A stretch of 64,000 nucleotides of DNA from Pontiella agarivorans (GTDB lineage Bacteria > Verrucomicrobiota > Kiritimatiellia > Kiritimatiellales > Pontiellaceae). Position 1 is the stretch's first letter, and each line of letters opens with the position of its first letter. Made by a program: the position numbers and the translations under genes. The notes below the pieces were generated by a model. That model saw only the letters and a program-made list of their open reading frames with translations, searched no databases and was not told where the DNA came from. Shown here one piece after another: positions 36,771 through 56,866 of the stretch. The stretch spans positions 496,001 through 560,000 of the forward strand of contig NZ_JARVCO010000010.1 of assembly GCF_034531395.1 (NCBI RefSeq), given 5' to 3'.

Positions 36771-38122
36771 ACCGTTTGGGAATAGCGGCCTTTGCGCTGT
36801 TCTTGTTGCAGATAGGCATCGAAGCGCATGGCAATGATCCGGATAAAGAGCCGGCCGAGCGGGGTAACGCGCAGTCCGCTTTCCTCGCGCTGCAGCAGAC
36901 CGTCGGCTTCGAGGTCGTCGAGCGAAGCGAGATCGGCCTTGAAATAATCCGTAAAATCAACACCCAGCTCCGTGGACAGGGCGGCGTAGTCGATGTAGAG
37001 ATTACACATGATATGCATGATGGCCGCATAGCGGATTTTATCGTCACTTGTCATGGTGTAACCGCGCACCAGCGGAAGTCTGCCGTCGTCGAGGGCCTGA
37101 TAGTAGGCTCCGATCTCTTTTTCGTTCTGGAAATACTGTCCGGCTGCGTGTGAAATGGAGGACATACCGAAGCCATGCAGATCAACCCCCTTCAGCGTGC
37201 TGTAACCCTGGAAGTTGCGTTGCAGTGTGCCGTCGGCCAGAGCAACGGCCATGGCATCGTCCGGCTTTGCAAAATGATCCATGCCGATATAAACGTAACC
37301 TGCACCGGTCAGTTTTTCGATGGCCAGCTGCAGGAGCTGAAGTTTGGTTTCTGTATCTGGAAGTTTGTCTTCCAGCGTTTTCTGGAACGGTTTGATCCAG
37401 GGGATATGCGCATAACTGTAAACCGCCAGCCGATCCGGCGAAAGAGTCAGCACGTCATCAATGGTTTGTTCGAAGGAGTGCAGCGTCTGTGTGGGCAGGC
37501 CGTAGATGAGGTCAAAATTGACGGAGCTCATACCGCAATCGCGTACCCACTGATTCGCCTGGGCAACCACTTCCAGAGGCTGGATGCGGGCAATGGTTTT
37601 CTGCACATCCGGATGGGTATCCTGAACGCCGAGGGAGGCGCGATTGAACCCGGCATGCTGCAGCGCCTGAACTTTTTCAAGGGTCAGACCGCGCGGATCG
37701 ATTTCAACACCGGCTTCGACGTTCGGGCTCACAGAAAAATTGCCGTGAATCAGTTTGCCGAGTTGTTCGAGTTCCTCTTCAAGCAGAAAAGTCGGAGTTC
37801 CTCCACCCAGCTGGATCTGTACGACACCGGATTCGGCATTGATGAACGGGCGCCGCAACTCGATTTCTTTCTGCAGATAGTCGAGATAGACCGCGCTGCG
37901 GTCCTGCTGTCCGGTTACAATATTGGTGCAGCCGCAGTAAAGGCATTGCCGTTTGCAGAACGGCAAATGGAAATAAAGAGACAGCGGGGAGTGCACACTT
38001 GCGCAGGTGTGATCCAGGCTGAAGTCTTCGGTGAAGTGCGTGGCCGGGGGATAGGAGGTATAGCGGGGCCCCGGCTGGTTATATTTGCGAAGCTGATTGA
38101 GACTGACATTGATACCGGTCAT
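36767..38122 (-). CDS. hemN: Oxygen-independent coproporphyrinogen III dehydrogenase HemN
   Basis: This radical-SAM enzyme decarboxylates coproporphyrinogen III to protoporphyrinogen IX without oxygen. The 451-aa product has the HemN opening RYTSYPPATHF. The cluster motif FCKRQCLYCGC has cysteines at about 56, 60 and 63 plus the HemN-typical following Cys. VQIQLGGGTPTFL, GVEIDPRGLTLEKVQ, NRASLGVQD and FDLIYGLPTQTLHSF are also present, so it is true HemN rather than HemW. Residues about 38-44 (HTCASVH) come from an imperfect copy of the CACACCTGCGCAGGTGTG palindrome. It overlaps hemE by 4 bp. Confidence 0.95.
   Translation of the reverse strand: MTGINVSLNQLRKYNQPGPRYTSYPPATHFTEDFSLDHTCASVHSPLSLYFHLPFCKRQCLYCGCTNIVTGQQDRSAVYLDYLQKEIELRRPFINAESGVVQIQLGGGTPTFLLEEELEQLGKLIHGNFSVSPNVEAGVEIDPRGLTLEKVQALQHAGFNRASLGVQDTHPDVQKTIARIQPLEVVAQANQWVRDCGMSSVNFDLIYGLPTQTLHSFEQTIDDVLTLSPDRLAVYSYAHIPWIKPFQKTLEDKLPDTETKLQLLQLAIEKLTGAGYVYIGMDHFAKPDDAMAVALADGTLQRNFQGYSTLKGVDLHGFGMSSISHAAGQYFQNEKEIGAYYQALDDGRLPLVRGYTMTSDDKIRYAAIMHIMCNLYIDYAALSTELGVDFTDYFKADLASLDDLEADGLLQREESGLRVTPLGRLFIRIIAMRFDAYLQQEQRKGRYSQTV
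37994..38011. repeat. CACACCTGCGCAGGTGTG-family palindrome inside hemN
   Basis: CACACTTGCGCAGGTGTG, one mismatch from a perfect 18-bp palindrome. In frame it encodes H-T-C-A-S-V, close to the H-T-C-A-G-V of the cmoA copy. Confidence 0.75.
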
Positions 38123-39162
38123 TTGAAATCCTGAACCGCTTCCGTTACAGCCTGAATGGCGGCAAGGTCGGCATCGGGCGGAACGCCGTGGCCTAGGTTG
38201 AAAATAAAGCCGTTACGTCCCCGCATACGTTCACAGATCCGGCGGGCCTCTTCAGCCGCGGAATTGGGGCGGGCAATCAGAAGCGCGGGGTCGAGATTGC
38301 CTTGGACGGCGACATCGGCGGGGAGACCGTCAGCCACTTCGCGCAGGTCGATACTCCAGTCGATGCTGAGTACATTGCCGCCGGTCTGGACCACCTGTTT
38401 CCAGTTATGGTGCACATTGCGGGCAAATACAATGGTTGGAACTGCGCCGCCGACGGCATCGATGATTCGCTGCATCCATAGTCCGGAATAGCGCCAGAAC
38501 AGATTCGGGGCCAGTGTGCCGCCCTGACTGTCGAAAATCTGAATTACATCCGCTCCGGCATCGATCTGGGCCTTAATGTAAACAATCGTGGCTTCGGTGA
38601 TTTTTTCGAGCAGAGAGAAAAAGAGTTTAGGCTCATCATGCAGGGCTGCGCGCGACCTTAGATTCTCCCGGGAGCTTCCACCTTCGACCATGAACGAGGC
38701 AAGCGTCCAGGGGGAGCCGGCAAACCCAATGATGGCGCGTTCGTCGCCGAGTTCTTTCCGGGCAACTTTGATGGCTTCCGGGGTGTAGCCAATGTGATCG
38801 AGCACATTTTTCGGGTTCAGCCGGTCTACATCGGCTTTGGAATTCAGTGCAAAATCGACTTCCACACCGCCCTTTTCGAGCAGTTCATATTTGGCGCCCA
38901 TGGCTTCGGAAATCACGAGGATGTCGGAGAAGATGACGGCGGCGTCGTAGCCGAAACGACGAATCGGCTGGAGGGTCACCTCCGCCGCCGTTTCCGGGTT
39001 TTGCACCAACTCGGTAAATTTCCGGGTTTCTTTCAAGGCCATGTATTCTGGCAGAGAACGTCCGGCCTGGCGCATCATCCAGATGGGCGGCCGGTCAACG
39101 GGTTCGCATTTGCAGGCACGCAAAAAGCGCTCACGGCAGGTCATAGTGTTTTCTTCGCTCAT
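38119..39162 (-). CDS. hemE: Uroporphyrinogen decarboxylase HemE
   Basis: HemE removes four carboxyl groups from uroporphyrinogen III to give coproporphyrinogen III. The 347-aa TIM barrel has the N-terminal signature RPPIWMMRQAGRSLPEY, the catalytic Asp region GYDAAVIFSDILVISEAMG, FAGSPWTLASFMVEGGSS and the C-terminal FNLGHGVPPDADL. A second ATG six codons in (MTCRERFL) is an alternative start. It is first in a two-gene run with hemN, which takes its product. Confidence 0.96.
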   Translation of the reverse strand: MSEENTMTCRERFLRACKCEPVDRPPIWMMRQAGRSLPEYMALKETRKFTELVQNPETAAEVTLQPIRRFGYDAAVIFSDILVISEAMGAKYELLEKGGVEVDFALNSKADVDRLNPKNVLDHIGYTPEAIKVARKELGDERAIIGFAGSPWTLASFMVEGGSSRENLRSRAALHDEPKLFFSLLEKITEATIVYIKAQIDAGADVIQIFDSQGGTLAPNLFWRYSGLWMQRIIDAVGGAVPTIVFARNVHHNWKQVVQTGGNVLSIDWSIDLREVADGLPADVAVQGNLDPALLIARPNSAAEEARRICERMRGRNGFIFNLGHGVPPDADLAAIQAVTEAVQDFK

Positions 39163-39200: not shown

Positions 39201-39237
39201 AAAAAAAGCCCCGACACCGTTTCCGGTCGTCGGGGCT
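39201..39237 (-). terminator. Intrinsic terminator of the secreted-protein operon
   Basis: Read on the minus strand, a stem of about 12 bp (AGCCCCGAC...GTCGGGGCT with inner pairs, arms 39207-39219 and 39224-39237) is followed by seven U residues (39201-39207). It follows the pseudogene at the end of the leftward operon and separates it from hemE. Confidence 0.88.
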
Positions 39238-39279
39238 GCCATCCTGTTTCCGGATAAATCGGAATCCGATTTCAGTTCC

Positions 39280-39606
39280 TCATTCTGAATGGACGCGGAA
39301 GAAGGCGGCTCCGTTGGAGGCAGGAATCTCCCAGGTGACGGCATCGGTGATATCTTTGGTGATAACGACGCGGTTCGGCATCGTGTATCCCGGCGTCACG
39401 GTTTCGCCAGCTTCATAAACGCCGTCATTCACCATCACCGTGTCGCCGTCTGAGGCGGCGTCGACCGCCGACTGAATGGTCGTGGAGGCTTTGGCCTACG
39501 TTTCATAGGGCGGCGTGTCTGAACCCGTTGGTGAAACATAGTAGGTCGTGGATAACGCGCTGGACGCTAGTATGGACAAGGCGATGCTATAGGCTGTTTT
39601 TTTCAT
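39280..39606 (-). pseudogene. Internally deleted, stop-interrupted copy of a beta-helix gene
   Basis: The minus strand from ATG 39606 encodes a signal peptide and TTYYVSPTGSDTPPYET, then a TAG stop (39496-39498), then AKASTTIQSAVDAASDGDTVMVN...PNRVVITKDIT. It jumps straight to DAVTWEIPASNGAAFFRVHSE and a stop. Both ends closely match the intact neighbour at 43846-46014 (first about 90 residues; last about 21). The middle 600 residues are missing and the Trp codon of 'WGTAAT' corresponds to the TAG. This is a paralog reduced to its two ends by an internal deletion. It keeps a normal operon position. Confidence 0.85.
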
Positions 39607-39645
39607 AATGAAGTCTCCTCATGAATACTAATCGGTAGGCCGAAG

Positions 39646-40761
39646 TTATTTTTTAATGGGGGTCACTCGGTAGTAACACGCATTGGTGCCGGATGGGTCG
39701 ATGGCGTGTTCGGAGGAACCGCCTTCTCCGGCCAGATAAAACCAGGTGGTCCAGTCGGTTAGATTGGTGGAGGTTTCAACCTGATAGGTGATGCCTTCTT
39801 CGCCAGCGAGCACGAGGCTCAGGTCGCCGGGGTTTTTGCCGGGGCCGATGGTTCCTGCAGGTTCTGCTTCGGGCGGGGTGTTCTCGCCATAAGGCAGGAA
39901 AGTGCCATTGCCCGCGATGACTTCGACGGTGTATTCCACTTTCTTGTTTGTGAAATCTGGTGGTGTTACGTAGCCATTCCCTCCTGTGGCGCACGGACCG
40001 GCCATGGTTCCGAGGTAGCCCCGTCCGGAGCCATCGCCCAGCCACTTCCCCGCGCTTGACGAGTTGCTCAGGAGTGTATCGATCGCAACCATGGCTCCGT
40101 TGGTGACGGTGAAGGAAAGCTCAAAGTCGGTCATGGAAGTTGTACCCGAATTTTCGTCACTCTGACTGAATGTCCGCTCATAACCCAGTTGGTTCTCGAA
40201 GGGGAGCTGGTCGTATTCGGGTAGCATAAAACAACCTTCGGCAATATTCATTAGGTCGCCAACGATGGGAAGAATGCTTCCGTGGGTGTCGGTGATCATG
40301 GAGTAGACTCCGCCATACGCGTCAGCACTACCGATGGATTGGATCCAGTCGTTCACGGTATAGCTGACGCGAATGGTTAGTTCGTCGTCGCAGGTGGCGC
40401 GGTAATAATCGCGCATCCCGACGGTAACCCGCATGCAAGAGTGTTCGACGGTATTGTTGATGGTGGATGCGCCGCAGTATGATCGCAAGACACGGTTGGT
40501 GGGATCGACGGAAAACTGGCCGCGGATTTCGGCCATGTTTTTAACTGAGCCGGTGCCTGCGCTACTTCCGCTACCCCAGCTGCCTTCGTCATACACGTTG
40601 CTTTCATAGGGGTTACTGGTTCCGGAAAAAGCGCAGCGAATGCTGATGGGCTGGTCTTTGTGGTGACCGGAGCCCTCCATCTCCGCCTGCCAGAAGCAGG
40701 TGTTGGCGTAGGTGAGTGCGGGGAGGGCCAGCGCGGTGATTATTAGGTTTTTTAAATGCAT
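39646..40761 (-). CDS. Secreted protein of unknown function
   Basis: The 371-aa product has a signal peptide (MHLKNLIITALALPALTYA) and no recognised catalytic domain. The mature part is rich in Gly, Ser, Thr and Asn with several cysteines (TCFW, IRCAFSG, SYCGAS, HSCMR, ATCDDE, EGCFML), suggesting disulfides. The last about 75 residues (YQVETSTNLTDWTTWFYLAGEGG...YYRVTPIKK) match the terminal beta domain of other secreted proteins in the window. It is the fifth gene of the operon, 30 bp after the GWI-repeat gene. Confidence 0.7.
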   Translation of the reverse strand: MHLKNLIITALALPALTYANTCFWQAEMEGSGHHKDQPISIRCAFSGTSNPYESNVYDEGSWGSGSSAGTGSVKNMAEIRGQFSVDPTNRVLRSYCGASTINNTVEHSCMRVTVGMRDYYRATCDDELTIRVSYTVNDWIQSIGSADAYGGVYSMITDTHGSILPIVGDLMNIAEGCFMLPEYDQLPFENQLGYERTFSQSDENSGTTSMTDFELSFTVTNGAMVAIDTLLSNSSSAGKWLGDGSGRGYLGTMAGPCATGGNGYVTPPDFTNKKVEYTVEVIAGNGTFLPYGENTPPEAEPAGTIGPGKNPGDLSLVLAGEEGITYQVETSTNLTDWTTWFYLAGEGGSSEHAIDPSGTNACYYRVTPIKK

Positions 40762-40791
40762 GGTTTTGGATTTCGTTGAGTTGGTGTTTTT

Positions 40792-41643
40792 TTAATTCGA
40801 GAGCGGTGGACGAGCGATGATTCGGTAGAAACGCGCGTCGCGTGTCGGGCCCCCTTTGATGGACTGGCTGGCGGTGGTTCCGGTTGGATAGGTTGCCGTA
40901 TGTTGGATCCAATTGGTTCCAAGGTCGGAGCTGTATTCAATATTATATTGCCGGCTTGGTTTACTGGTCCAGGTGAGCTTTTGGCTGAAGGAGGTTAGCG
41001 CCAGGTCGGTGATCATGAGCTGATCATCGGCATCCTTCGGGTTGGTGTCGGCCAAATATTCATCGCGGTCCGAAACGCCATCGCCATCCTTGTCGCCATT
41101 GCGAGAGAGCACCGTCAAGGCGTTGCGTCCAAAGGTGACGTAGCGATATTCCCACGCATCGGGGATGCCGTCGAAATCGTTGTCATTTCCGGGAGCCAGC
41201 GAAGTGGTTCGAATGGAGTTGAGATCAATCCACCCCATGTTGGCACTCCAGATATGACCCGTGAGTTCGCCGGTCTTCAGATTGATGGCGGGCTTCCCAT
41301 AGGTTTGCTCAAAGTTGATCCAACCAATATTTGCGCCATAGGCATAGCCGGTCAGGTGACCCTGCCCGTCGTGGTTGACGCCATAGTCGGAAGCATAGTT
41401 TTGAGCGTAGTTTTTTCCGTTCATCGGCGAACCATCGCCCAGATGAATCCAGCCGACGTTGGCGCTGTAGAGATAGCCAGAGCAGTAAAACTCGCCGACG
41501 ATCATGCCGTTGGTTCCATCGGCCCGCGCATCCACCCAGCCAATATTGGCGCCATAAGCTTCGCTGTTGACGGGAGCGATGGTGCTTTCCGAGAAAGCGG
41601 TTGAAACGGAAAGAATGGATAAAAGCATAATAAGCCTTTTCAT
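40792..41643 (-). CDS. Secreted protein with four (Y/W)xAN(I/V/M)GW(I/V) repeats
   Basis: The 283-aa product has a signal peptide (about 1-18), then four copies of a motif: YGANIGWVD (about 30), YSANVGWIH (about 59), YGANIGWIN (about 102) and WSANMGWID (about 132). The copies are separated by glycine-rich turns with G(D/E)L/HLTG(Y/H) between the later copies. A thrombospondin-3-like segment follows (DNDFDGIPDAWEY...NGDKDGDGVSDRDEYLADTNPKD), then the terminal beta domain (YNIEYSSDLGTNW...RFYRIIARP). The repeat may form a small beta solenoid or propeller. Start set at 41643, before the signal, 10 bp after the upstream gene. Confidence 0.72.
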   Translation of the reverse strand: MKRLIMLLSILSVSTAFSESTIAPVNSEAYGANIGWVDARADGTNGMIVGEFYCSGYLYSANVGWIHLGDGSPMNGKNYAQNYASDYGVNHDGQGHLTGYAYGANIGWINFEQTYGKPAINLKTGELTGHIWSANMGWIDLNSIRTTSLAPGNDNDFDGIPDAWEYRYVTFGRNALTVLSRNGDKDGDGVSDRDEYLADTNPKDADDQLMITDLALTSFSQKLTWTSKPSRQYNIEYSSDLGTNWIQHTATYPTGTTASQSIKGGPTRDARFYRIIARPPLSN

Positions 41644-41653
41644 GCGTCGTTTC

Positions 41654-43810
41654 CTAGAAGCTGAGATTGTCTGAAGGCGCAACAGTACCGGATACCAGCG
41701 GGACATGGTTTCCGGCGGTATCGCTGTAGTTTGTCGAGCAGTTCCATACTCGGTTGTTGAGTAGGATATTATCTGCTTGTTGGAGATTGATACCGATCCC
41801 ACATTCGTAAATTCGGTTTCCTTCCAGCATGTTATTGCCGGATTCATAGTCGGAATACTGCAATAGTATTCCTTCCTGACACTGCCGCACGGTGTTGTTC
41901 ATCAGTGTGACATCATCAAATAAAACTTCAATTCCAGCACGGGTGTAACGCCCTTCGTAATTCTGACCTTCAACTAGGCAATCTTCGATTAAAGCGTCAT
42001 CCCATATATCGATACCGCACAGCGTGTTATATCTTGCTGTACACTGCCTCAAGTTTCCATTGTAGACCAAAAAACCATTTTCCGCGTTGTATGCGCTGTT
42101 GCAGTTCAGCGCCTCAGCATTATTCTCCAAGCGCAGTCCGTCCTCTGTGTTGGATGACGTGCTGCAGTTTTTTGCAACAGAGTTTAGAAGATATATTCCG
42201 ACGTTATTTCCTCTTGATTGGCTGTCTTTGACAAAAGAACCGCCTAAAGACATACCGTATAAGGCATTGTTTATTGTCCGGCAGGCCTCAATACGGCCTC
42301 CTGAATCAACGCAGATGCCATACGCCTGATTTGATGACACATTGCATTCGGAAAGCGTTCCGTATTTTTTCACATAGACTCCGCCGCCCTTGTTGTCCGA
42401 AATATTCAGCCTTTTGAGATTGGAATATTCTCCGGCAATGGCAACTGCCGCTGGTTCAGGGGAAAAAGTTGCATACGATGTGGTCCCTTCCCAGTTTGAA
42501 ATATTTCCATTCGAGAGACTAAAGTTATTAAAACCGGGAAGCTGATGGACAGCATGGCCGCTACCGGTTCCTGGGCCGATCAGGCTATGTCCGGCCATGT
42601 CGATTGACACATTGTCGGCTTGGACAGTAATGCCATTTACACCTTGTTCGCTTACGGTTAATGATCCCGTAAGACGCACCGTAGATGGCCAGTCCAGCGT
42701 TTCCGGAATTTCGCTCAAAAGGAGGTTGAGTTGGTTGCCGGCGGCCATGTCGTAGTTATCTTCGGTGCCGGAGACCTGATTTTCAAAAACGCGGTTTTCG
42801 GTGCCGGTTATATAAAGACCTTTTTCCGTGTTTTCGCCGCCAATGATATTATGACCGATGGCGTTGCGCTCGCTGGCAACGTGAATGCCCCACATATTGT
42901 CTTGAACTGTGTTGCCCTTTACCAAGTTGTCGCTTCCTGTGATTTGGATGCCTGCACCGTCTTGGTGGGTGGTGGGGCGGTTGCCGTTGGAGGAGGCGGA
43001 GCAGTTTTCAATGGAACATTTTTCGGTAATCTCAAAGCCGCTACGCTCATTGCTGGAGGCGTTGCAATTGATGATCTGTGTTCCGGCCTCGCCCTTAATG
43101 CCAGAGTGCTGATTTGCAAATGAGGTGCAGTTGCGGACGATTGAATTGTATTGAGCGAGAATGCCTTCGGATCCGTTATAATAGACCGAACAGTTTTCGA
43201 TGACGTTGGCTTGGCCGGAAGAGATGCCCCACGTGCCATTTTCAGAGGCTTTGCAGTTCAGGATCGAACCCGCGAATCCGCCATAGATACCCGCCGTTGT
43301 ATTACGCACCGCTTGGCAATCTTTGATCTGAACCCCGTAGAGCCCTCGCTCATTTTCAATCGCGATAACGTTTTGAATTTGGCTCTCAAAACCGGCGCTC
43401 ACCGCATAGCCGCCAAGCCAATTGCGGATGGTGCCACTAAAGACGCGGCAGCCCTTGTTGAACGTTCCCGTTTTGATGGCCGATCCGCTGCTTTCGCCGG
43501 GGCCGGTGAGGGTGAAGCCCATTAGATCGATCGTTACATCATCTGCCTGAACATAAATTCCGTGGGCTCCGGTCGCCGTCATTGTCAGGTTGCTGACGAC
43601 ATAGTAGGAGCCGGATTCGCTTATGGTGAACGGTAGGCTGGAAATGGGGGTGCGTACTTCGGCACTGGCGCTGCCTGATACCGCTGAATAGATTTCGTCG
43701 AGCGATTTCATGGTGGGGGCCGGAGCGCCCGGAGGGGTTAAACTGCCTTGGCCGAAAACCATTCCGGTTATCGACATGAGGATGAGTGTGCTGAGGATTC
43801 TTTTTTTCAT
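41654..43810 (-). CDS. Secreted right-handed parallel beta-helix protein (NosD/pectate lyase-like fold)
   Basis: The 718-aa product has a signal peptide (MKKRILSTLILMSITGMVFGQ). It contains two tandem beta-helix units, each starting with the same opening: GIYVQADDVTIDLMGFTLTGPGESSGSAI and GITVQADNVSIDMAGHSLIGPGTGSGHAV. Many rungs follow of the type IENCSVYYNGSEGILAQYNSIVRNCTSFANQHSGI. Rungs alternate N-C-x(S/T) turns typical of PbH1 repeats. No lyase catalytic triad was recognised, so a carbohydrate-binding or adhesive role is as likely as an enzyme. The start at 43810 is chosen by the signal peptide. Confidence 0.82.
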   Translation of the reverse strand: MKKRILSTLILMSITGMVFGQGSLTPPGAPAPTMKSLDEIYSAVSGSASAEVRTPISSLPFTISESGSYYVVSNLTMTATGAHGIYVQADDVTIDLMGFTLTGPGESSGSAIKTGTFNKGCRVFSGTIRNWLGGYAVSAGFESQIQNVIAIENERGLYGVQIKDCQAVRNTTAGIYGGFAGSILNCKASENGTWGISSGQANVIENCSVYYNGSEGILAQYNSIVRNCTSFANQHSGIKGEAGTQIINCNASSNERSGFEITEKCSIENCSASSNGNRPTTHQDGAGIQITGSDNLVKGNTVQDNMWGIHVASERNAIGHNIIGGENTEKGLYITGTENRVFENQVSGTEDNYDMAAGNQLNLLLSEIPETLDWPSTVRLTGSLTVSEQGVNGITVQADNVSIDMAGHSLIGPGTGSGHAVHQLPGFNNFSLSNGNISNWEGTTSYATFSPEPAAVAIAGEYSNLKRLNISDNKGGGVYVKKYGTLSECNVSSNQAYGICVDSGGRIEACRTINNALYGMSLGGSFVKDSQSRGNNVGIYLLNSVAKNCSTSSNTEDGLRLENNAEALNCNSAYNAENGFLVYNGNLRQCTARYNTLCGIDIWDDALIEDCLVEGQNYEGRYTRAGIEVLFDDVTLMNNTVRQCQEGILLQYSDYESGNNMLEGNRIYECGIGINLQQADNILLNNRVWNCSTNYSDTAGNHVPLVSGTVAPSDNLSF

Positions 43811-43845
43811 GGTTGTGATCCTGTTTAATTTAACTGAAAGATGAT

Positions 43846-46014
43846 CTAATCGGCGTGGACGCGGAAGAAGGCGGCTCCGTTGGTGGCGGGGATTTCCCAT
43901 TCAACGGCATCCCCGACTTCGTTCCAAACATTGGAAGCGAGGTTGTCGGTTTGTTTAAGCTGCAGGCTGAGTTCGAGCATATTGCCGGACGTCTGAAGCA
44001 TGAGGTTCCCCAGATTTAAATCCTGTATAGAGTCGGCGGTATAGAGACCATGCGCGGCGGGATCGTCGGTCACGTTGGCTTCGCCCTGGGCAATCGCCGC
44101 AGATTCATCGAACGTGGGGCAGAAGCCCATTGCAGCCTCATCGCCGTCTTCTCGGCCATCGCCATCGCTGTCGGTGTTGTTCACGCCGGAGCCGAAGGCC
44201 ACCTCTTCGGCATCGGTCAGACCATCATCGTCGTAGTCGCCCGCGCCCGCGAATTCGTAGGCGCCCATGTCGGCAATGGCAGACCCATCCCCATTGCCAT
44301 CCAGCCAGCGGGGGAGCCCGTCGATATCGGTCATAATGGCTCCCGATTGAGTGACGGCTGCATCAATGCAGGGGGAGTCCGGTTGAAGGCGCAGTGAAAG
44401 ATACTCAAAGTCGGGTGCGTTGGTGGTGCCGGTTTGTCCGGCCTCTAAGACCGAGGTGCAGCAGGCAAGAACGGTGTCCATTTGGGACAGATCATCGCCG
44501 GAACCATTTCCATCCTCATTCGTGTCGGCCAGATTGTCGACGATGATGCTGTTGTAGATGTGCCCTTTGCTGCACCCGCCGCCGTCGTTCACGGCGCTGT
44601 TTCCTTTCAGCGTGCAATGGTGCAGCTCGCTATCATAGGTGCCGCCTCCCCAGATGGCGGTATTGTCGATGAAAACAGCATTGTGAATGGTCCCGTCGTA
44701 CGCGCCTCCGCCTTTGGATGCCGTATTTCCGGAAAGGGTACAGCGGGAGAGCGTATCGAAATAGCTCCCGCCTCCTGAGCCTCCTCCGTCATTGCCGATG
44801 AGGGTGCACCCGGTAAGGGTGGCATAAGCACTTCCGCCTCCATGGGTGGTGGCGACGTTTTCGGTAAGCGTACAATCGGTCAGGGTGCCACCGTAAACGC
44901 CGGCGCCTCGATCAGCGCGGTTTCCATCGAGTACGCAGTCCGTCAGCGTGCTGTTACTGTTACCTCCTCCCGAACCCGTGGCGATGTTGTTCTTAATGGT
45001 GCATTTTTCCAAGGTGCTGCTGGAGGTTCCCCCGCCCGAACCCGCCGTATTTTGCGAGAGGGTGCAGTTGGTTAGATCCGATTGATAGGCTCCTCCGCCG
45101 TTGGTCGCAACATTCCCGGTGATCAGGCAGTCGTTCAGTGTGGCGGACCGGCAGCCGCCGCCGTGCCGCGCAGTATTGTTCGAAAGCGTGCAGGCCGACA
45201 GGGTGGAGTGATGGCTGCCGCCGCCGGAATCAGCCTGGTTACCCGAAAAGGTGCAGTTTGAAAGCACACCAAAATGGCTTCCGCCTCCCAGTGAAAGGGC
45301 TTCGTTGCCGGTCAGGGAACAGTCGGTGAGACTGCCCACCGAGCTGCCGCCGCCATTGTTCGCTGTGTTGCTGGTCAGGGTGCAGTTCTGCAACGTGCTG
45401 GAGCAACTCCCGCCGCCCTGATTGTCGGTTGCATTGCCGATGAATTCACAATTGACCAGTTGGCCGCCATAACTTCCGCCTCCGCTATACGTGGCCGTGC
45501 AGTTTTTGATGATGCAGTTGCTCACGATGCCGGACCCGCTGGCCCCGCCGTTACCGCTCAGCAGGTTGATGCCGCCACCGGACTGATCATATGCGGTATC
45601 TCCATCGGTCGTGTTGGCGTGGCCGTTTTGGAGAGTGAACCCGATCAGTTCACCTTTGGTCATATAGACGCAGCGAACCAGCACATCATTCCGGCCCAAT
45701 AAGATGTTGTTTCCGGCAATAAAGGTGTTCGCCGCCCCGCCTAAAGATTGGACGGTTATATCTTTGGTGATCACCACCCGGTTGGGCATGCTGTATCCGG
45801 GCGTCACCGTGTAGCCCAGATTATACGTGCCGCTGTTCACCAGCACGGTATCGCCGTCTGAGGCGGCGTCAACGGCGGTCTGAATCTTGGTGGCAGCGGT
45901 GCCCCAGTCGGAGTAGGGCGCCGTGTCGGAGCCGGTGAGTGAAACATAGTAGGTCGCGGCCATCGTACTGGCGGCCGTAATAAGCAGTGACAATCCGAGT
46001 GCAGCTGATTTCAT
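43846..46014 (-). CDS. Secreted beta-helix protein with Pmp/GGGS-type rungs
   Basis: The 722-aa product has a signal peptide, an opening shared with several neighbours (TYYVSLTGSDTAPYSDWGTAATKIQTAVDAASDGDTVLVNSGTY) and about sixteen rungs of roughly 23 residues. These have the form GGGSxxSTLxNCTLSGNTAxx (for example SGGGSYGGQLVNCEFIGNAT), like chlamydial polymorphic membrane protein repeats. An acidic thrombospondin-3-like segment (GDYDDDGLTDAEEV...TDSDGDGREDGDE) and a terminal domain ending FFRVHAD follow. The pseudogene at 39280-39606 is a deleted copy of it. It is 35 bp from the next gene and 21 bp from the giant gene upstream. Confidence 0.83.
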   Translation of the reverse strand: MKSAALGLSLLITAASTMAATYYVSLTGSDTAPYSDWGTAATKIQTAVDAASDGDTVLVNSGTYNLGYTVTPGYSMPNRVVITKDITVQSLGGAANTFIAGNNILLGRNDVLVRCVYMTKGELIGFTLQNGHANTTDGDTAYDQSGGGINLLSGNGGASGSGIVSNCIIKNCTATYSGGGSYGGQLVNCEFIGNATDNQGGGSCSSTLQNCTLTSNTANNGGGSSVGSLTDCSLTGNEALSLGGGSHFGVLSNCTFSGNQADSGGGSHHSTLSACTLSNNTARHGGGCRSATLNDCLITGNVATNGGGAYQSDLTNCTLSQNTAGSGGGTSSSTLEKCTIKNNIATGSGGGNSNSTLTDCVLDGNRADRGAGVYGGTLTDCTLTENVATTHGGGSAYATLTGCTLIGNDGGGSGGGSYFDTLSRCTLSGNTASKGGGAYDGTIHNAVFIDNTAIWGGGTYDSELHHCTLKGNSAVNDGGGCSKGHIYNSIIVDNLADTNEDGNGSGDDLSQMDTVLACCTSVLEAGQTGTTNAPDFEYLSLRLQPDSPCIDAAVTQSGAIMTDIDGLPRWLDGNGDGSAIADMGAYEFAGAGDYDDDGLTDAEEVAFGSGVNNTDSDGDGREDGDEAAMGFCPTFDESAAIAQGEANVTDDPAAHGLYTADSIQDLNLGNLMLQTSGNMLELSLQLKQTDNLASNVWNEVGDAVEWEIPATNGAAFFRVHAD
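43922..43936. repeat. TTCCA-N5-TGGAA match in the beta-helix gene
   Basis: Exact match, spacer AACAT, encoding SNVWNE. It may be coincidental coding sequence. Confidence 0.35.
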
Positions 46015-46035
46015 GGTGATTTCTCCTTTAGAACG

Positions 46036-49000
46036 TTAGTCGATCCAGACGTTAATTTTGTAGAAGGCGGCGGTGTTGGTGTTTTCGACGGTATAGCTCT
46101 CTTCTGGGTAGTGGACGGCGGGATAGATGGGCTGGAAGGAATTGGTCAGGCTGTCGGTCCAGAGCACCTGATAAGCGCGGTTGTAGACAGAATCCCAGTG
46201 CAGCACCGTGATGTCGTTGGTCAGTTCCTGCTGCGTGATGCGGAAGTAGGAGTCGGAATCGAACGGATCGGTTCCGGCCACATATTCTTCGTAGTTGCTA
46301 TGCGGGTCGGTGTCGGCGTTTTCTGAAGCGATGGCATTGGTTACGCCGCCGAAGTTTTCAAGCTCCCAGGCATCGTCCATTTCATCGCCGTCGGAATCGC
46401 CGGTCAGCCACATTTCGCAGGCGCCCATATCCACGGTTCCGTATCGGATGCGATACAGGCCGTTATAATCGATGTCGGTGGAAACGTAGGAATTCTCGCC
46501 GGCGTTGATGCACGGCGAGAGGTTGCTCAGGTAGTAGTCGCCGCCGCGAATGAGAATATCCGGAGCCATAGCCACAAACAGCGGCGCATTGGTGATGTTG
46601 CCGTAATAGGTGCTGGGGGTGAGATCGGGGCTGCAGCTGTTTCGCGCTGAAGCAGAGGCGAGGTCGGCCTTGTTTTCAGCGTTAAAGGCCACATTACTCC
46701 AAACGATGGAGTTATAAACACTGGATCCATAAACGCCGCCGCCGTTCTCCGCTCCGTTTTCTGCAACGGTGCAGTTGTAGAGCGTGGTGCTGTAGGTACC
46801 ACCGCCATATTGAATGGCTGCATTGTTGTGGATCGTGCAGTTGTGGGCCGTTCCTTTATGCGTTCCGCCGCCATGTGCTGAGGTGGCATAGTTGAAGAAA
46901 ATATCGCATCGATCGCTGGTGCAGCTGGCCAACCCGCCGCCGGACGGCGCGGTGTTGTCTGTGAGGGTGGAGAAGGAGACTGTACTGTAATAGGCCCCGC
47001 CGCCCACTGTTGTGGCGGTATTGTTCGAAAGCATACATTCGTTCGCGATTCCGCCGTAAATGCCGCCGCCATATTGAGCGGAGTTGCTGCTGATCGTGGA
47101 TTGGGTCAACGAGCTTTCGTAGGCTGCACCTCCGCTGGAGGAGGCCACATTGTTGGATAAGGTGCAGTGTTCGAGGGTGCCTTTATAGACCCCGGCTCCG
47201 TTGTAGGCCACGCAGCCTTCGATGGTGGAAGAGGTGATGAGCGGTGCGCTGTTGGCACAATAGATTCCGCCGCCTTCGTTGTTGCTGTAGCCGAGTGTAG
47301 AAGCTGCGCCGCTGCGGATGGTTAGATACTCAAGCACACATTCACTGTAGCCGAGGTTGAAGCAGCGATTGCTGCTGCCCGCGTCAACCGTTGCCGCGCT
47401 GTCGAACGCGCCGGAAACGCAGATCGACTTATCAATGTTGACGGTGGCGGTGATGTGGTTGATGCCGCGGACAAAGACGTTGCCGCCATAGACGTTCTGT
47501 GCATCGACGGCCGCCTGGATGGTGGCTTTCGGTGCGTCCCAACTGAGGCCGTGGTTAGCGTCGTCGCCGGTGACGGGATCGACGTGCAGAGAGCTGGTGA
47601 AGGCCGAGGCCACCATCACCTGCTGCGTGAAGGCGGTGCCCTGCTGGTTGTCGAGGTTGTAGCCGGTCAGCACCACGTCGTAGGTGCCCGGGTCGGCCCA
47701 GGTGTGGATGATCGTTCCGAGTGCGTTGGTGATGCGTGTGCCGTCGGCGAAGTCGATGATTGTCTGTTTGGTTTCGCCGTTGAAGCTTGCGATGTAGGGG
47801 GCGGCAACATCTTCCAGTACGTGGGTCGGGCCGATCAGTCCAATCTCAATGTCGGGCGAGAGGGCCATATCGGGTTCATCGCACCCCATGGGAGGTGCGT
47901 TGAGCCAGACCGCGCCGTCGATGTCGGTTCCGACCGCAGTTGCCGGATCGCCGAGGTCGCGGCAGGGCGATTCAACCGCGAGGTGCGAGGCGGACACCAG
48001 CGCCGGTTGATTGGTGATGCAACCGTCCTCACCGTGCGTGGCGTCGGGCGAGCAGGTGTAGTCGGGGTTGGCGCTGTACAAATCGTTGCCTTCGTCATCC
48101 GCGGTGTTGAACCACGCGATGCAGCTGTTGGCTTTTCCGGAGAACATGCCGCCGCCCTTGGTGCCGGAATGGTTGGCGGTGATGGTGCAGTGGTTGGCGG
48201 TGGTGTAGGCCATCGCGCCGCCATAGTCGGTGGCTTTATTGCCGGTAAAGCAGCAGCTGTTGGCCGTGCCGTTAAGCATGCCGCCTCCTTGCCTCAAGGT
48301 GCGGTTGCCATAGAAATAGCAGCGGTTAGCGGTGCCATAGCGCATGCCGCCGCCTCCGTTCAGCGCCATGTTTCCGTTGAAGCGGCAATCATGTGCGTTG
48401 CCGTCGGCCAAGCCGCCGCCATAGCTTGCGGTGTTGTTTTCGAAGACGCAGCGGTTGGCGGTGCCATAGCGCATGCCGCCGCCATAGTTGGAGTCGCAGC
48501 GGTTTTCGCGGAAGATACAGTCGGTCGCGATGCCGGCGTACATGCCGCCGCCCGCGTCGCGCGCATAGTTACCGATAAATTCGCAGCCGTTGGCGCGGCC
48601 CATGTAGAGCCCGCCGCCGGAGCCATTCCAGCTCCAGTTATTGGTGAAGAGACAGTCGGTCGCCGTGCCGTAGGCCAGAGCGCCGCCCTTGGTGGCGGAG
48701 TTGCCGTCAAATACGCAGTTGGAGATTTGTGGACTGAGTGAATAGTTGCAAAAGATGCCGCCGCCGGAATAATACTTGGTGCTGTTACGATCTCTGCCGT
48801 TGCGGAAGGTGATGTCGCGAACGGTGGTGTGGTTATCGGCGATATCGAGGCAGCCGACGCCGGTGTAGTCGTTGGTGGAGCCGCCGTCAATGATGGTGTG
48901 TTCTGCGCCGTTGGCACTGAGCAGCTGGATGTCTTTATCGATGCTGATGGTTTCTGTCAGCGTGTACGTGCCATTGCTGACCACAACACGCCCGCCGTGC

Positions 49001-51831
49001 AGCTCCTGAGCATCGACGGCAGCCTGAATCGTCTGCTTGGCGTTAAACCAGCTGCGGCCATTGTTGTTGTCGTCTCCATCGGTCCGCACATAAAGGGTAC
49101 TGAAGTCGGCGTCGAATACGGTGATGGTGTTGGTGATTGAATAGCGGTCCTGGTGATTGTTGTTCCAGGCAGTGACGATCAGGTCGTACGTTCCCGGCGT
49201 GCTCCAGCTGTGTCCGAACGGAATAACGCCGGAGCCCGTGGCGATGAATCCGTCGCCAAAGTCGATTTGATCCCGCTCAAACGCCCCTTGGAAGTCGACG
49301 GTATAGAAGGCGTTGAATCCGGCCGGAATTTCGGTGGGGCCATTCAGCGTAATGGTAACGGCTCCTGTTGGCGGGTCGGCGGGTTCATCGCAGCCGATGG
49401 CGGGAGCACTGCGCCAATGTTCGCCATCAATATCGAGGGTATCGCGCAGAATATCGCCCGTGCCGGTGCAGGGGGAACTCAACTTAATGTGCGAAGCGGA
49501 GACCAGCTGCGGATTGTTGGTGATGTTGCCGTCCACGCCGTGCTCCAGGTCGGGAGAGCAGGAGGTGGTGATGGTTCCATATGCAATGTTGTCGAACGAT
49601 TGCAGGGCCTCGTTATACCAGATAATGCAGTGGTCGAGGGTCGAGGAATAGGTGCCGCCGCCATTCACGGCCCGGTTGGCCGTTAAAGTGCAGTGCGTGG
49701 CTGATCCTCCATACAGGCCGCCGCCGTACTGATTCGCTTTGTTTCCGTTAAAGACGCAGTTATACGCATCGGTGCCATACGCGCCACCACCGTAGGAGGT
49801 GGTGCTGTTTCCAATGAATTGGCAGTCGTAGGCCGTGCCTTCATACATCGCGCCGCCATTCTTTAGATTGGTGTTGTTTTTGAAGACGCAGCGTGTTGCC
49901 ACACCGCCGGACATGGCACCGCCGCCCGATCCGCCGCCGAGGCCTCGGTTGTTTTCAAAGAGACAGTCGACCGCAATTCCGCTTAGCATGGCACCGGGGC
50001 CGTTGCCGGCCGCATTGAACGAGAAGGTGCAGTTCGTTGCCGTGCCGCGCCACATGATGCTGCCGCTGTTTCCGGTGTTTCCTGTAATCAGACAGGCTTC
50101 GACCACGGGGTCGTGTGAGGAACTGTAAATTGTTCCTCCGCTGGTGCCTTCGGGTTCGTAATGGCCGCCATTGCGAATGGTGAAGCCTTTGATGCGGCAG
50201 TGCTGGTTGCCCAAGTGGAAAATGCGGTGGTAGGCATCGCCTTGGATGATGGTCTGCTCGGCTCCGTTGAGGCTTTCAATGCGGATGTTTTTATTCACGT
50301 TGATTTGTTCGGTAACTGAATAGGTACCGTTGGAAACCAGCACGAGGCCGCCAACATAGTCCTGCGCATCCACGCCGGCCTGAATGGTTTTCCTGGCGGT
50401 CGCCCAGCTGAGGCCGTCGTTGGAGTCATCGCCGTCGGCATCGGAGACATAGATGGTTTTGGTTTCGTCCTTGCGAACATAGATGGTGTTGGTGATGGAG
50501 GTGGAATACCCGCTCTTGCCGGTCAGGACCACGTGATAGTTTCCGTAGGCCCAGGTGTGGGATTGGGTAAGGCTGGTTGAGTTGGTGAGGGCGCTACCGT
50601 CTCCGAAATCCAGAATGGTTTGGGTGACCGGACCTTCCACGTAGGCATCAAAGAAAATTTCCTGCCCTGCGGTAATGAACTGAGGCAGATTGTTGTGTGC
50701 ATGAATTAATCCTTCTGAGGTCACTTCATCACATCCGATGGATGGGGGGGTTGCCCAGGCCGCACCCTCAATATCCGTCAGCGCGGCATAGGCGGCGTCT
50801 CCTGCTCCGACGCAGGGAGAGGCTGCGGCAAGGTGGAAGAGTGAAACCAGCTGCGGATTGTTGGTGATGCTGCCGTTGGTCGTGCTGTCCGGCGTACAGC
50901 AGGAATAGATTTGGGTCCCGTAAACGTTCGGGCTGTTATCGCTGGCGGTGTTGTTCCAAAGGATGGAATTATAGGCCCTGCCATAAGTCATGCCGCCGCC
51001 AATGTTCGCTGTGTTTTCGGTGATGGTGCAGTGGGTTGCGGTGACCTGATAGAGGCCGCCACCATAATTGGAGGAGTGGTTCCCGGAAATGGCGCAGCCT
51101 ACTGCGCTGCCCGAAATCATTCCGCCGCCGCTTCCGCTGGCCGTGTTGGCCAGGATAAGGCTGTTGGTGGCCGTGCTGTTATACAGGCCGCCGCCTTCTC
51201 TTGAGGAAACATTATTCTGAAAGGTGCAACCTGTTGCCGTGATTTGATAGCCGCCTCCTCCCTGAGTGGCCTCGTTGTTGAGAAAAGAACAGTCGGTTGC
51301 AATGGTGCTGTTGGCACCGCCGCCGTAATACGCGCCGGTATTATTTTGGAAGGTGCATTTCGAAGCACGGCCTTTCACCATGCCGGTGCCGTCGGTCTTT
51401 TCAATGATGCAGGAGTTCACCAAGGGCTGTGTGCCGGAGCAGCGAACGGCCGGATCCTTGCCGTTGCGGATTGTGAAGTTATACAGATCGGAGTCGGTAT
51501 CACCCAGATCAAAGCAGGTATAGAGGCCCTGTCCGTCAAACACAACATCCTCGGGGCCATCCACCCAGAAGCCCTGGATGGAAATGTCGTTTGTCACGAC
51601 AATCGAAGAGGTCAGTGTGTAGGTTCCTTCCGCGACAAAAATCTGATCCCCGTCCTCCACGTAGGGCAGCACTTGCTGAACCGTGTGTGCCGCCTCGGTC
51701 CAGTCGTTGGTATAGGGTGGAATTTGGACCAGACTGTTGACATTGACCCAGTAGGTTTGATTCGCCTGCGCCAGACCCGCAAGAGAAAGAAGCAGAGTTA
51801 TGACCCAATGCTTAGTGTTTAATATATTCAT
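46036..51831 (-). CDS. Giant secreted protein: four beta-helix modules joined by PKD domains
   Basis: The 1931-aa product has a signal peptide (HWVITLLLSLAGLAQA) and four repeated modules starting near residues 25, 455, 908 and 1412. Each opens with a line like LYVRTDGDDNNNGRSWFNAKQTIQAAVDAQ...VSNGTYTLTETI, followed by GGG-type rungs (ATNCTFxNNxAxxGGGxY). Modules 1-3 each end in a conserved SPC.G.GD......DI.GA.W...P.IGCDE block and a PKD-like domain (SWAYGNYHVVLTG; SWSTPGTYDLIVTA; TWADPGTYDVVLTG). A thrombospondin-3-like segment and terminal beta domain close the protein. Such a protein is probably displayed or released as an adhesin or polysaccharide binder. It is first in the operon. The ATG at 51831 is chosen over one 23 codons upstream. 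Confidence 0.82.
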   Translation of the reverse strand: MNILNTKHWVITLLLSLAGLAQANQTYWVNVNSLVQIPPYTNDWTEAAHTVQQVLPYVEDGDQIFVAEGTYTLTSSIVVTNDISIQGFWVDGPEDVVFDGQGLYTCFDLGDTDSDLYNFTIRNGKDPAVRCSGTQPLVNSCIIEKTDGTGMVKGRASKCTFQNNTGAYYGGGANSTIATDCSFLNNEATQGGGGYQITATGCTFQNNVSSREGGGLYNSTATNSLILANTASGSGGGMISGSAVGCAISGNHSSNYGGGLYQVTATHCTITENTANIGGGMTYGRAYNSILWNNTASDNSPNVYGTQIYSCCTPDSTTNGSITNNPQLVSLFHLAAASPCVGAGDAAYAALTDIEGAAWATPPSIGCDEVTSEGLIHAHNNLPQFITAGQEIFFDAYVEGPVTQTILDFGDGSALTNSTSLTQSHTWAYGNYHVVLTGKSGYSTSITNTIYVRKDETKTIYVSDADGDDSNDGLSWATARKTIQAGVDAQDYVGGLVLVSNGTYSVTEQINVNKNIRIESLNGAEQTIIQGDAYHRIFHLGNQHCRIKGFTIRNGGHYEPEGTSGGTIYSSSHDPVVEACLITGNTGNSGSIMWRGTATNCTFSFNAAGNGPGAMLSGIAVDCLFENNRGLGGGSGGGAMSGGVATRCVFKNNTNLKNGGAMYEGTAYDCQFIGNSTTSYGGGAYGTDAYNCVFNGNKANQYGGGLYGGSATHCTLTANRAVNGGGTYSSTLDHCIIWYNEALQSFDNIAYGTITTSCSPDLEHGVDGNITNNPQLVSASHIKLSSPCTGTGDILRDTLDIDGEHWRSAPAIGCDEPADPPTGAVTITLNGPTEIPAGFNAFYTVDFQGAFERDQIDFGDGFIATGSGVIPFGHSWSTPGTYDLIVTAWNNNHQDRYSITNTITVFDADFSTLYVRTDGDDNNNGRSWFNAKQTIQAAVDAQELHGGRVVVSNGTYTLTETISIDKDIQLLSANGAEHTIIDGGSTNDYTGVGCLDIADNHTTVRDITFRNGRDRNSTKYYSGGGIFCNYSLSPQISNCVFDGNSATKGGALAYGTATDCLFTNNWSWNGSGGGLYMGRANGCEFIGNYARDAGGGMYAGIATDCIFRENRCDSNYGGGMRYGTANRCVFENNTASYGGGLADGNAHDCRFNGNMALNGGGGMRYGTANRCYFYGNRTLRQGGGMLNGTANSCCFTGNKATDYGGAMAYTTANHCTITANHSGTKGGGMFSGKANSCIAWFNTADDEGNDLYSANPDYTCSPDATHGEDGCITNQPALVSASHLAVESPCRDLGDPATAVGTDIDGAVWLNAPPMGCDEPDMALSPDIEIGLIGPTHVLEDVAAPYIASFNGETKQTIIDFADGTRITNALGTIIHTWADPGTYDVVLTGYNLDNQQGTAFTQQVMVASAFTSSLHVDPVTGDDANHGLSWDAPKATIQAAVDAQNVYGGNVFVRGINHITATVNIDKSICVSGAFDSAATVDAGSSNRCFNLGYSECVLEYLTIRSGAASTLGYSNNEGGGIYCANSAPLITSSTIEGCVAYNGAGVYKGTLEHCTLSNNVASSSGGAAYESSLTQSTISSNSAQYGGGIYGGIANECMLSNNTATTVGGGAYYSTVSFSTLTDNTAPSGGGLASCTSDRCDIFFNYATSAHGGGTHKGTAHNCTIHNNAAIQYGGGTYSTTLYNCTVAENGAENGGGVYGSSVYNSIVWSNVAFNAENKADLASASARNSCSPDLTPSTYYGNITNAPLFVAMAPDILIRGGDYYLSNLSPCINAGENSYVSTDIDYNGLYRIRYGTVDMGACEMWLTGDSDGDEMDDAWELENFGGVTNAIASENADTDPHSNYEEYVAGTDPFDSDSYFRITQQELTNDITVLHWDSVYNRAYQVLWTDSLTNSFQPIYPAVHYPEESYTVENTNTAAFYKINVWID
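50954..50968. repeat. TTCCA-N5-TGGAA match in the giant gene
   Basis: Exact match, spacer AAGGA, encoding SILWN of a recurring beta-helix segment. Protein constraint may explain it. Confidence 0.35.
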
Positions 51832-52022: not shown

Positions 52023-52068
52023 CAAAAAAAAAGTTCCAGCGGTTGGAAAAACTCAACCATTGGAACTT
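52023..52068 (-). terminator. Terminator built from a TTCCA-type palindrome, after the RidA-like gene
   Basis: The minus strand reads a 16-bp arm pair (AAAGTTCCAATGGTTG and CAACCGCTGGAACTTT, two mismatches; loop AGTTTTTC), followed by eight or more U residues (52023-52032). It lies 20 bp past the stop of the RidA-like gene. An exact TTCCA-GCGGT-TGGAA palindrome (52034-52048) forms one arm, and a partial copy forms the other. Confidence 0.8.
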
Positions 52069-52087
52069 TAGGAGGAGGAAGATAAAT

Positions 52088-53203
52088 CTACTTGGTTTTC
52101 ACGGCATCGAGTTCAATTTCAAACAGGAGGTCGTGACGGCAGACATCTGCGTGGGAAATCGCTACGGGCAATTCCGGCAGACCATTGGCCAAACAGTATT
52201 TTTCGAGCAGATGCGCATCGCCGGCGTCTTTGAAATAAGCGATAGCGCGGGCGGTGTTTTTCCAGTCCATGTCGCGCGATTTCAGGATTTCGTGGACGAC
52301 GGCCATCGTTAACTCGATCTGCTTTTCGGTATTGCCGAGATGGACGGTTTCGCCGCCGGGTTCAATGCTGGCGGTTCCGGAGATGGTCAGCAGGCGGGAG
52401 CCGGGCTGATCGATTTCCACGGCGCGGGCGAAGGATGATTTGTAGTCGAGCGCCGGGCACTGCAGCGGGGAGGGAACGGGGAATACTTTCACATTGTCGT
52501 TTTTCGGTTTCACGGCGAGCAGCGCGGCCACCATTTCTTCGCCGGCGGCGGTGCCGGCGCCAATGCCGGTGGAGGCCGGTACCATTTTGTCGAACGTGCC
52601 TTTTTCCTTGAAGAAGTTCGTGCGGACCACATTAAATTCGTCGTACCACTCCAGCAGGTTGTTGAGATAGAGCCACGTGCGGGCAATATCGGTAAATTTC
52701 ATGTCGGCCTGTTTGAGGAGGGTTTCCATTTTTTCAAAAACCGCCTGGGCCTGTTTTTCGCGGCCGAGGCTGAGATCATCAGCTCGAAGATCGCCGAGCA
52801 GGCAGTAGCGGGCGTCATCCGTCTCGTACCAGTTGCCGACTTTTCGGTCGCCGTCCATGACGGGGTGAAGGTCGGCCCCGGAGAGGGCGATAAACTGGGT
52901 GCCGGTAATGGTGGATCCGGAGCAGGCATCGCCGTGCAGCAGGGTGAGCGGCCAGTCCAGTTTTTCGATGGAGGAAACCGCCTGCGGGTAAAATTTACGC
53001 CCGCCGAAGACATATTGAAATGCAATGCGGGCATTGCGTGCCGCCATTTCGGCGGTGACCTGATCGACGACCTCATTAATCGTTTCTTCGGAGGCCTGAG
53101 CGGTGATGATGTGTGCCGTAACTCCGCCGTGCGGGAATTCGACAATCTGCAGGCTGTGGTCTGCTGTTACATCTGACTTATCCATTTCCAGAATTCCATT
53201 CAT
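52088..53203 (-). CDS. Two-domain RidA/YjgF-superfamily protein, possibly chorismatase-like
   Basis: The 371-aa product has the RidA fold in its C-terminal half (LLTISGTASIEPGGETVHLGNTEKQIELTMAVVHEILKSRDMDWKNTARAIAYFKDAGD...DVCRHDLLFEIELDAV). A related N-terminal half (TQFIALSGADLHPV...AQAVFEKMETLLKQADMKFTDIARTWLYLNNLLEWYDEFN) precedes it, joined by a PASTGIGAGTAAGEEMVAALLAV segment. Tandem RidA halves with a central STGIG stretch and a terminal Glu are also features of FkbO/Hyg5-type chorismatases, which cleave chorismate. That assignment is tentative. A simple RidA enamine/imine hydrolase is the alternative. Stand-alone gene between two terminators. Confidence 0.72.
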   Translation of the reverse strand: MNGILEMDKSDVTADHSLQIVEFPHGGVTAHIITAQASEETINEVVDQVTAEMAARNARIAFQYVFGGRKFYPQAVSSIEKLDWPLTLLHGDACSGSTITGTQFIALSGADLHPVMDGDRKVGNWYETDDARYCLLGDLRADDLSLGREKQAQAVFEKMETLLKQADMKFTDIARTWLYLNNLLEWYDEFNVVRTNFFKEKGTFDKMVPASTGIGAGTAAGEEMVAALLAVKPKNDNVKVFPVPSPLQCPALDYKSSFARAVEIDQPGSRLLTISGTASIEPGGETVHLGNTEKQIELTMAVVHEILKSRDMDWKNTARAIAYFKDAGDAHLLEKYCLANGLPELPVAISHADVCRHDLLFEIELDAVKTK

Positions 53204-56400: not shown

Positions 56401-56866
56401 CAGGAAATCCGCCTTCACAGATGTGGAAAACACCTTTGGTCGTGCGGCGGTCGTGTTTCGGGTTGTGCAGTACGCCCTGCTGAATGCGATACGATTCCAC
56501 TCCGTTTGCAATAAACTCATCTTTGTGTGGCGGGAGCGAAAGTTCTCTCGCCAGACCATGGCGGTCGAGGGTGAGCGTTTTATTCGGAAGGGTCGGAACC
56601 TCGTCGCAGGCATCGCTCAGGTATTCATTGAGAAAGTGTTGAATACGCTGGTCCACCGGACAGAGGTAGTCATGCAGAATGCGGTTCTTTTCCTTGATGT
56701 TGTTGATCAGGTCGAACGCAATATCGAGCTCTTTTCCGTCTGTTTTTTCATAGATCGGCTGATCCAGAGCGGAAAGTTTTAAATTCAGGTAGGAAACCAG
56801 AGATTTCCGATGGCTTTTTGAGGCCTGATCAACCCCGATGCCTAATGATTTTTTCAAGTCTTTCAT
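53417..56866 (-). CDS. Pyrophosphate-type phosphoenolpyruvate carboxykinase
   Basis: This enzyme would interconvert oxaloacetate plus pyrophosphate with PEP, phosphate and CO2. The 1149-aa length is far above ATP- or GTP-PEPCK (about 540-620 aa) but equals the PPi-using family known from Entamoeba and propionibacteria. Two PEPCK hallmarks are visible: GDNYFGYCKKEVKTQIGFAANL (about 330-351; compare G-T-E-Y-A-G-E-M-K-K), which holds the metal-binding lysine, and CTVSGGGKSEISKSL (about 485-499) in place of the nucleotide P-loop, followed by IFVADIENDLNAV. It has an AGGAG ribosome site and stands alone. The assignment comes from family knowledge and motif reading, without a database search. Confidence 0.75.
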   Translation of the reverse strand: MKDLKKSLGIGVDQASKSHRKSLVSYLNLKLSALDQPIYEKTDGKELDIAFDLINNIKEKNRILHDYLCPVDQRIQHFLNEYLSDACDEVPTLPNKTLTLDRHGLARELSLPPHKDEFIANGVESYRIQQGVLHNPKHDRRTTKGVFHICEGGFPVPADKLEVPKQTYAKLLEVALNPPEEHMQLPFTSAQEKKAATQVSLLLRPMVSPEVPGFLPEKNMEVRFFVPGNFVCNLDFVESIFGNAGDPYLPENDAALDPDSWTGYTGCVILAPHICGLKKKDLGLPYIDDATERQKRDGMCWASPDELYNGGTPFKITARDESGVMVTIIGDNYFGYCKKEVKTQIGFAANLYGLCEEEHAGGALALPQYNLAERFSPDGTLTQLDHTMANVMHVLGDKVTIHPEGYATDNEHPNVFFVPETAEFSIPDQSVTWSKSGKTQSLKLLEDRVFIYPSGYRVALKQSPTAGTWRLVGTMAEGTLCHKPCTVSGGGKSEISKSLTDAMISGSIFVADIENDLNAVQEILDKDYSVRFKVPREEGHKTRPILGNERSLGSVIKLLNPSEENTDEFNEWLASVPNRIKGLVFLLKRFYKPEWGDDWRSHLSVDFINGEKGHELKFDGKKVKGNYLRVGMDTDGIWRTSKLRTDFIPAEKIQWEDDISASIVVPSDKLTDLNPDYAECKSVKIVDNCESRLFQRPDEAINRGFDKAAEADMAAPNNFLSNFAPLHKSVAQEIMDHSVMYHQYTKPMRKLIKKAAESKNPDQLFVDSAQPRIVDGKPTKNPRYLQTRPDLVDGMPKYLALTSTCLFRKIKAGNPLFTPVNAVLPGRRNNPAEPGIRPLAVYGPIHYQELPELFMDFICSLTGKSPSTTGAGTEGALTKGPFNALPATADLNNALLSFILTGSNGFSTAAGYIGTKHKVEHDISILIPELWCRLSVAERDPKHMIAAGQLEKLEDFEHEGKPVLASRLGYRITKRFVNDFIGKVFEAPKTVFEPDMLKPELQGMDEYVDGINNIMETQQMIARRYIEDGSVESFIPPLKALIYIMAEGTCEGMDAADPTFRSMFERDAVLASDWYKERLKLKQQRKADACRKHIEYLNNFISQKHNTAEVERLDCKARLETVEKRLAYVETDAYIEDLVGTIGADPIAV

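Follow-up and report, generated by a model that had tools for sequence, protein, structure and literature searches.

Does a tight run of genes for exported proteins in Pontiella agarivorans encode one dedicated surface assembly, as the original prediction proposed from the letters alone, or a locally gathered set in which only some members belong together? The run lies in a window of 64,000 nucleotides, the whole stretch of DNA analysed here, from the genome of strain NLcol2T (12 contigs, 4,436,865 bp, N50 contig 1,265,434 bp; PMC10880615).

Layout and products of the gene run

Open reading frames and their translations on the minus strand between positions 51,831 and 39,201 gave five intact genes and one broken gene (Table 1), separated, from P0001 to the pseudogene, by 21, 35, 10, 30 and 39 bp. 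The single direction with gaps of 10-39 bp, the terminator closing the run and the signal peptide on every product had all been predicted, and all were recovered here, each product opening with a signal-peptide-like stretch as judged by eye. Neither a lipobox nor an LPxTG motif was found in the run's products. Separate promoters and terminators for each gene had been named as evidence against an operon; inside the run neither sigma-70-like promoters nor minus-strand terminators exceeded expectation, and the genes may be co-transcribed. In GC content and GC3 the genes were similar to their neighbours, with the exception of P0003, whose GC3 is lower (0.56 vs 0.60-0.72).

Table 1. Positions in the window of the gene run, its terminators and the flanking genes
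Feature	Positions	Strand	Description	Basis
Upstream neighbour	52088..53203	-	Rid/FkbO-Hyg5-like; conserved, outside the island	profiles, relatives
Upstream terminator	52025..52070	-	intrinsic terminator of the FkbO-like gene; upstream edge of the island	-18.8 kcal/mol, z -4.6
P0001	46036..51831	-	secreted, 1931 aa from ATG	domain profiles; orthologs in G005, G017, G002
P0002	43846..46014	-	secreted, 722 aa, glycine-rich beta-helix-type	choice-of-anchor Q; short FN3-tail-like C-terminus
P0003	41654..43810 (ATG at 43810)	-	secreted right-handed beta-helix; first half of the conserved pair	profiles, model
P0004	40792..41643	-	secreted; forms the conserved pair with P0003	four GANIGWI-type repeats, TSP3 (calcium-type) linker, FN3-like C-terminal domain
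P0005	39646..40761	-	secreted 371-aa orphan	weak FN3-like tail
Pseudogene	about 39281..39606	-	P0002-like	N-terminal ~87 codons fused to last ~19 codons; in-frame TAG
Run terminator	39205..39238	-	intrinsic terminator of the run	-25.6 kcal/mol, z -4.6
hemE	38119..39162	-	downstream neighbour; conserved, outside the island	profiles, relatives

P0001 carries PMP-like GGG/FxxN repeats in its beta-helix blocks, together with three PKD domains, a choice-of-anchor Q domain, a TSP3-like segment and an FN3-like C-terminal tail, and its Pfam/NCBIfam matches include Beta_helix and NosD. Its start is supported by the ortholog in G017, which opens with an identical MNILNTKHW. P0002 is a shorter relative of P0001, with a weak match of its tail to the FN3-like tail. 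The choice-of-anchor Q profile (NF041518) scored above its cut-off of 25 in both proteins (38.3 bits in P0001 and 32.0 bits in P0002). With chlamydial PMP proteins and autotransporter passengers P0001 shares a beta-helix bearing GGG and FxxN repeats of PMP type (Chlam_PMP 40.8 bits, cut-off 20.6). Unlike autotransporters, however, no island protein carries the barrel PF03797, and this absence is meaningful because seven real barrel autotransporters are encoded elsewhere in the genome. The prediction that the run contains no enzyme active site, autotransporter barrel or secretion gene was supported: profile searches found no catalytic family in it and neither of the other two was present. For type IX secretion, the SprA translocon (PF14349) had no match in the genome, a search in which the control genome was likewise silent.

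The broken gene is a real pseudogene, the remnant of a P0002-like gene: its N-terminal part is 77% identical to P0002 at the DNA level, after which 1842 bp of P0002 coordinates are skipped. P0005 had no domain match and no repeats apart from its FN3-like tail, and the description of the products as repeat proteins thus held for four of the five and failed for P0005. No relative of P0005 was found in the 387 other genomes of the phylum, and none in plasmid records. The genome itself holds a second copy of its C-terminal half (G000:C12:1114724-1115266; L055:9722-10264) with 75% amino acid identity, which lacks the N-terminal half and the signal peptide. Sequence searches of the PDB with P0001, P0005 and the P0003 family returned nothing meaningful.

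The P0003-P0004 pair across the phylum

The part of the run worth following is the pair P0003-P0004. The survey covered 80 named loci in Verrucomicrobiota, Kiritimatiellae and Lentisphaerae that encode a P0004 homolog, 76 of which lay away from a contig edge. A P0003 homolog stood on the same strand within two genes of the P0004 homolog in 60 of these 76 loci, directly upstream in 48, when compared with 7 of 374 among genes lying farther away in these loci; the Fisher test gave 2e-51, a value that overstates independence as the loci are phylogenetically related. The genes around the pair varied from locus to locus. Clustering of the neighbours without the P0003 profile singled out one family, present in 64 loci, whereas the runner-up occurred in 5, and no further gene family accompanied the pair frequently. 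Across 40 related genomes, full-length P0004 was present in eight of the nine with P0003 and in none of the 31 without it. By its gene neighbourhoods, the pair is an old conserved two-gene unit kept across families and orders. P0004 itself is patchily distributed (35 of 388 phylum genomes) and was absent from phage records. Its matches at 13 places in its own genome and in 39 of 40 relatives fell mostly over the TSP3/FN3-like tail, and the FN3-like part was also scored in P0001 and P0005.

Several loci differed in detail from the simple pair. Six tandem P0003-like genes followed by a single P0004 were found in L059 (G003 C33), with a P0001-type C-terminus upstream, and two P0003-P0004 pairs stood together in L056 (G004 C67), the second followed by a protein with a strong match to BspA-type LRR. 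In L057, L060 and L061 (G014, G006 and G001) the pair adjoins a TetR and TolC-like efflux locus. These RND-efflux neighbours, seen in three genomes, were rejected as a partner of the pair and judged to be a shared ancestral locus, the position being probably common to the three.

P0003 matched NosD and para_beta_helix, and its family NosD and Beta_helix, in the manner of NosD/CASH-type beta-helix proteins. The NosD equivalog TIGR04247, however, fell far short of its cut-off of 300 bits in P0001 (72.9 bits) and had no P0003 match listed, and P0003 is instead paired with P0004. The model of P0003 was a beta-helix (pLDDT 83) with tails of low confidence. The most conserved stretch of the family was the predicted mature N-terminus (QGSLTPPGAPAPTMKSL in P0003), which is unstructured in the model: majority identity was 83% at residues 21-38 versus 26% in the helix, an apparent conservation inflated by the part of the sampling that demanded the N-terminal motif. 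The 16 members outside the strict N-terminal pattern were mostly recognisable variants, and the C-terminal tail (...PSDNLSF in P0003) was conserved too. A variable rod whose flexible ends are conserved points to a role of these ends as docking or sorting peptides.

The PDB folds nearest to P0003 were mostly enzymes or tailspikes, with PL6 alginate lyases, the epimerases AlgE4 and AlgG, and Pel9A as the closest. P0003 might thus be a polysaccharide-modifying enzyme of lyase or epimerase type, with P0004 as a binding or anchoring subunit and the run as an accessory polysaccharide locus. Such an activity would suit P. agarivorans, which degrades algal polysaccharides (PMC10880615), and two of its relatives are reported to make sulfated glycosaminoglycan-like exopolymers (PMC7356697). 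We nevertheless regard the enzyme reading as unlikely. The right-handed beta-helix is common to P0003, PL6 lyases and AlgE/AlgG mannuronan epimerases, but the TM-scores were at most 0.56, as expected of any right-handed beta-helix, and the invariant residues of P0003 are either part of the tails or apparently structural (glycines, rung Asn/Cys). Because P0003 matched no PL, GH or epimerase family in Pfam/NCBIfam and lacks the epimerase motif DPH[DE], we favour a structural or glycan-binding role over catalysis.

The model of P0004 had a pLDDT of 92. Its TSP3 linker scored below the Pfam cut-off in P0004 itself and was detected in 37 of the 58 family members, and no Pfam family covered the GANIGWI part in any of the 58. 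With the model of the whole protein as query, Foldseek matched nothing for this part at E 0.001, either in the PDB or among viral folds; the top PDB matches were mostly FN3 domains of about 80 residues, restricted to an FN3-sized stretch. Comparison of the family with the PDB by sequence detected only marginal matches of the calcium-binding (TSP3/EF-hand) type. A literature search, poor in subscription papers, found no description of the pair or its motifs.

A slot with variable content between the FkbO-like gene and hemE

The slot that holds the run measures 12.9 kb in P. agarivorans. In four genus-mates the matches to the FkbO-like gene and hemE were 108-190 bp apart (G009, G001, G014 and G003; in the last two, a contig end interrupted the FkbO-like match or the match was spread over two contigs). 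The short intergenic sequence of this empty site was read for G009 and G001, and a terminator like that at the upstream edge of the island is present in both. G005, an 8.7-Mb Pontiella, has nothing in the slot but a P0001 ortholog and a predicted lipoprotein. The slot of G017 (C131; L162:2345-3631) holds a different 1.4-kb insert, whose ORF (447 aa, or 428 aa if an inner start is used) has no Pfam match, so the slot takes different cargo in different strains.

The pieces of the run were also found apart. Orthologs of P0001 (50-58% identical) occur in G005, in the same slot, and in G017 and G002, and a scan of the named genomes returned no relative. In G017 the P0001-P0002 pair sits away from the slot, on C88, where the P0002 ortholog (56% identical) lies 21 bp downstream of that of P0001, and G005 and G002 carry P0001 without P0002. 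The island was thus assembled locally from pieces, namely P0001 alone or with P0002, the P0003-P0004 pair, P0005 and the P0002-like remnant, and the empty site in the four genus-mates favours gain of P0002-P0005 here over loss elsewhere. An origin from a mobile element found no support: no border repeat was longer than 8 bp, and inspection of the island ORFs revealed no transposase or integrase.

Two further observations concern the surroundings. Two genes upstream of the island, an ORF of 1149 aa (53417-56866, minus strand) had no Pfam/NCBIfam match. A sensor kinase with ABC_sub_bind, PAS, HisKA, HATPase and response-regulator domains (34086-36770, plus strand) is placed between hemE-hemN and an amine-oxidase (HemY-like)/ferrochelatase pair (29726-32058).

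The original prediction had read the run as one dedicated operon for a single multi-protein surface assembly. Its tandem layout, with short gaps, one orientation and terminators at both edges, and its secreted, repeat-rich products stood; its unity was not supported, as the full set occurs in no relative examined, P0005 is an orphan and one member has decayed. Linkage in relatives, which had been proposed as a test, splits the run: P0003-P0004 are strongly linked and P0001-P0002 are linked in G017, whereas P0005 was found in no other genome searched and four genus-mates have an empty slot. We consider a single dedicated assembly about as unlikely as the enzyme reading. Similarly unlikely is that redundant adhesin-type genes were collected neutrally and that not even P0003-P0004 share a function in this strain, a reading for which the patchy distribution, the pseudogene and the half-copy of P0005 would speak, but against which stand five long intact frames and a pair held together across families and orders.

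A possible role at the cell surface or in the matrix

On balance, the run is probably a strain-specific array of exported, presumably non-enzymatic surface or matrix proteins, built from existing pieces in a variable slot, with P0003-P0004 as one unit in a glycan-binding complex. P0001 and P0002 would be long beta-helix proteins resembling autotransporter passengers without the barrel. The FN3-like tail on most products, preceded by TSP3 in P0001 and P0004, recurs widely in the genus and may reflect a genome-wide route of export or attachment, in which case no secretion gene would be needed in the island. P0003 would form a beta-helix rod, with its flexible, strictly conserved N-terminus and its C-terminal tail serving as docking or sorting peptides, and P0004, with its GANIGWI domain, calcium-type linker and FN3 tail, would be its partner or cap. 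The two together may build one complex at the cell surface or in an exopolymer matrix that binds glycans. More tentatively, the pair could represent an undescribed two-protein surface system of the whole phylum, assembled from a beta-helix rod, whose N-terminal docking peptide (QGxLTPPGAPxPTMKTL) is strictly conserved, and a GANIGWI partner of unclassified fold or family, to which lineages add different beta-helix proteins.

Large secreted proteins of unclear role are numerous in Verrucomicrobiota and their relatives. The filled, part-filled and empty states of the slot give a view of how such arrays get assembled, and the pair kept across orders, with its unclassified domain and conserved peptide tail, offers a small and specific target for the study of how surface or matrix is built.
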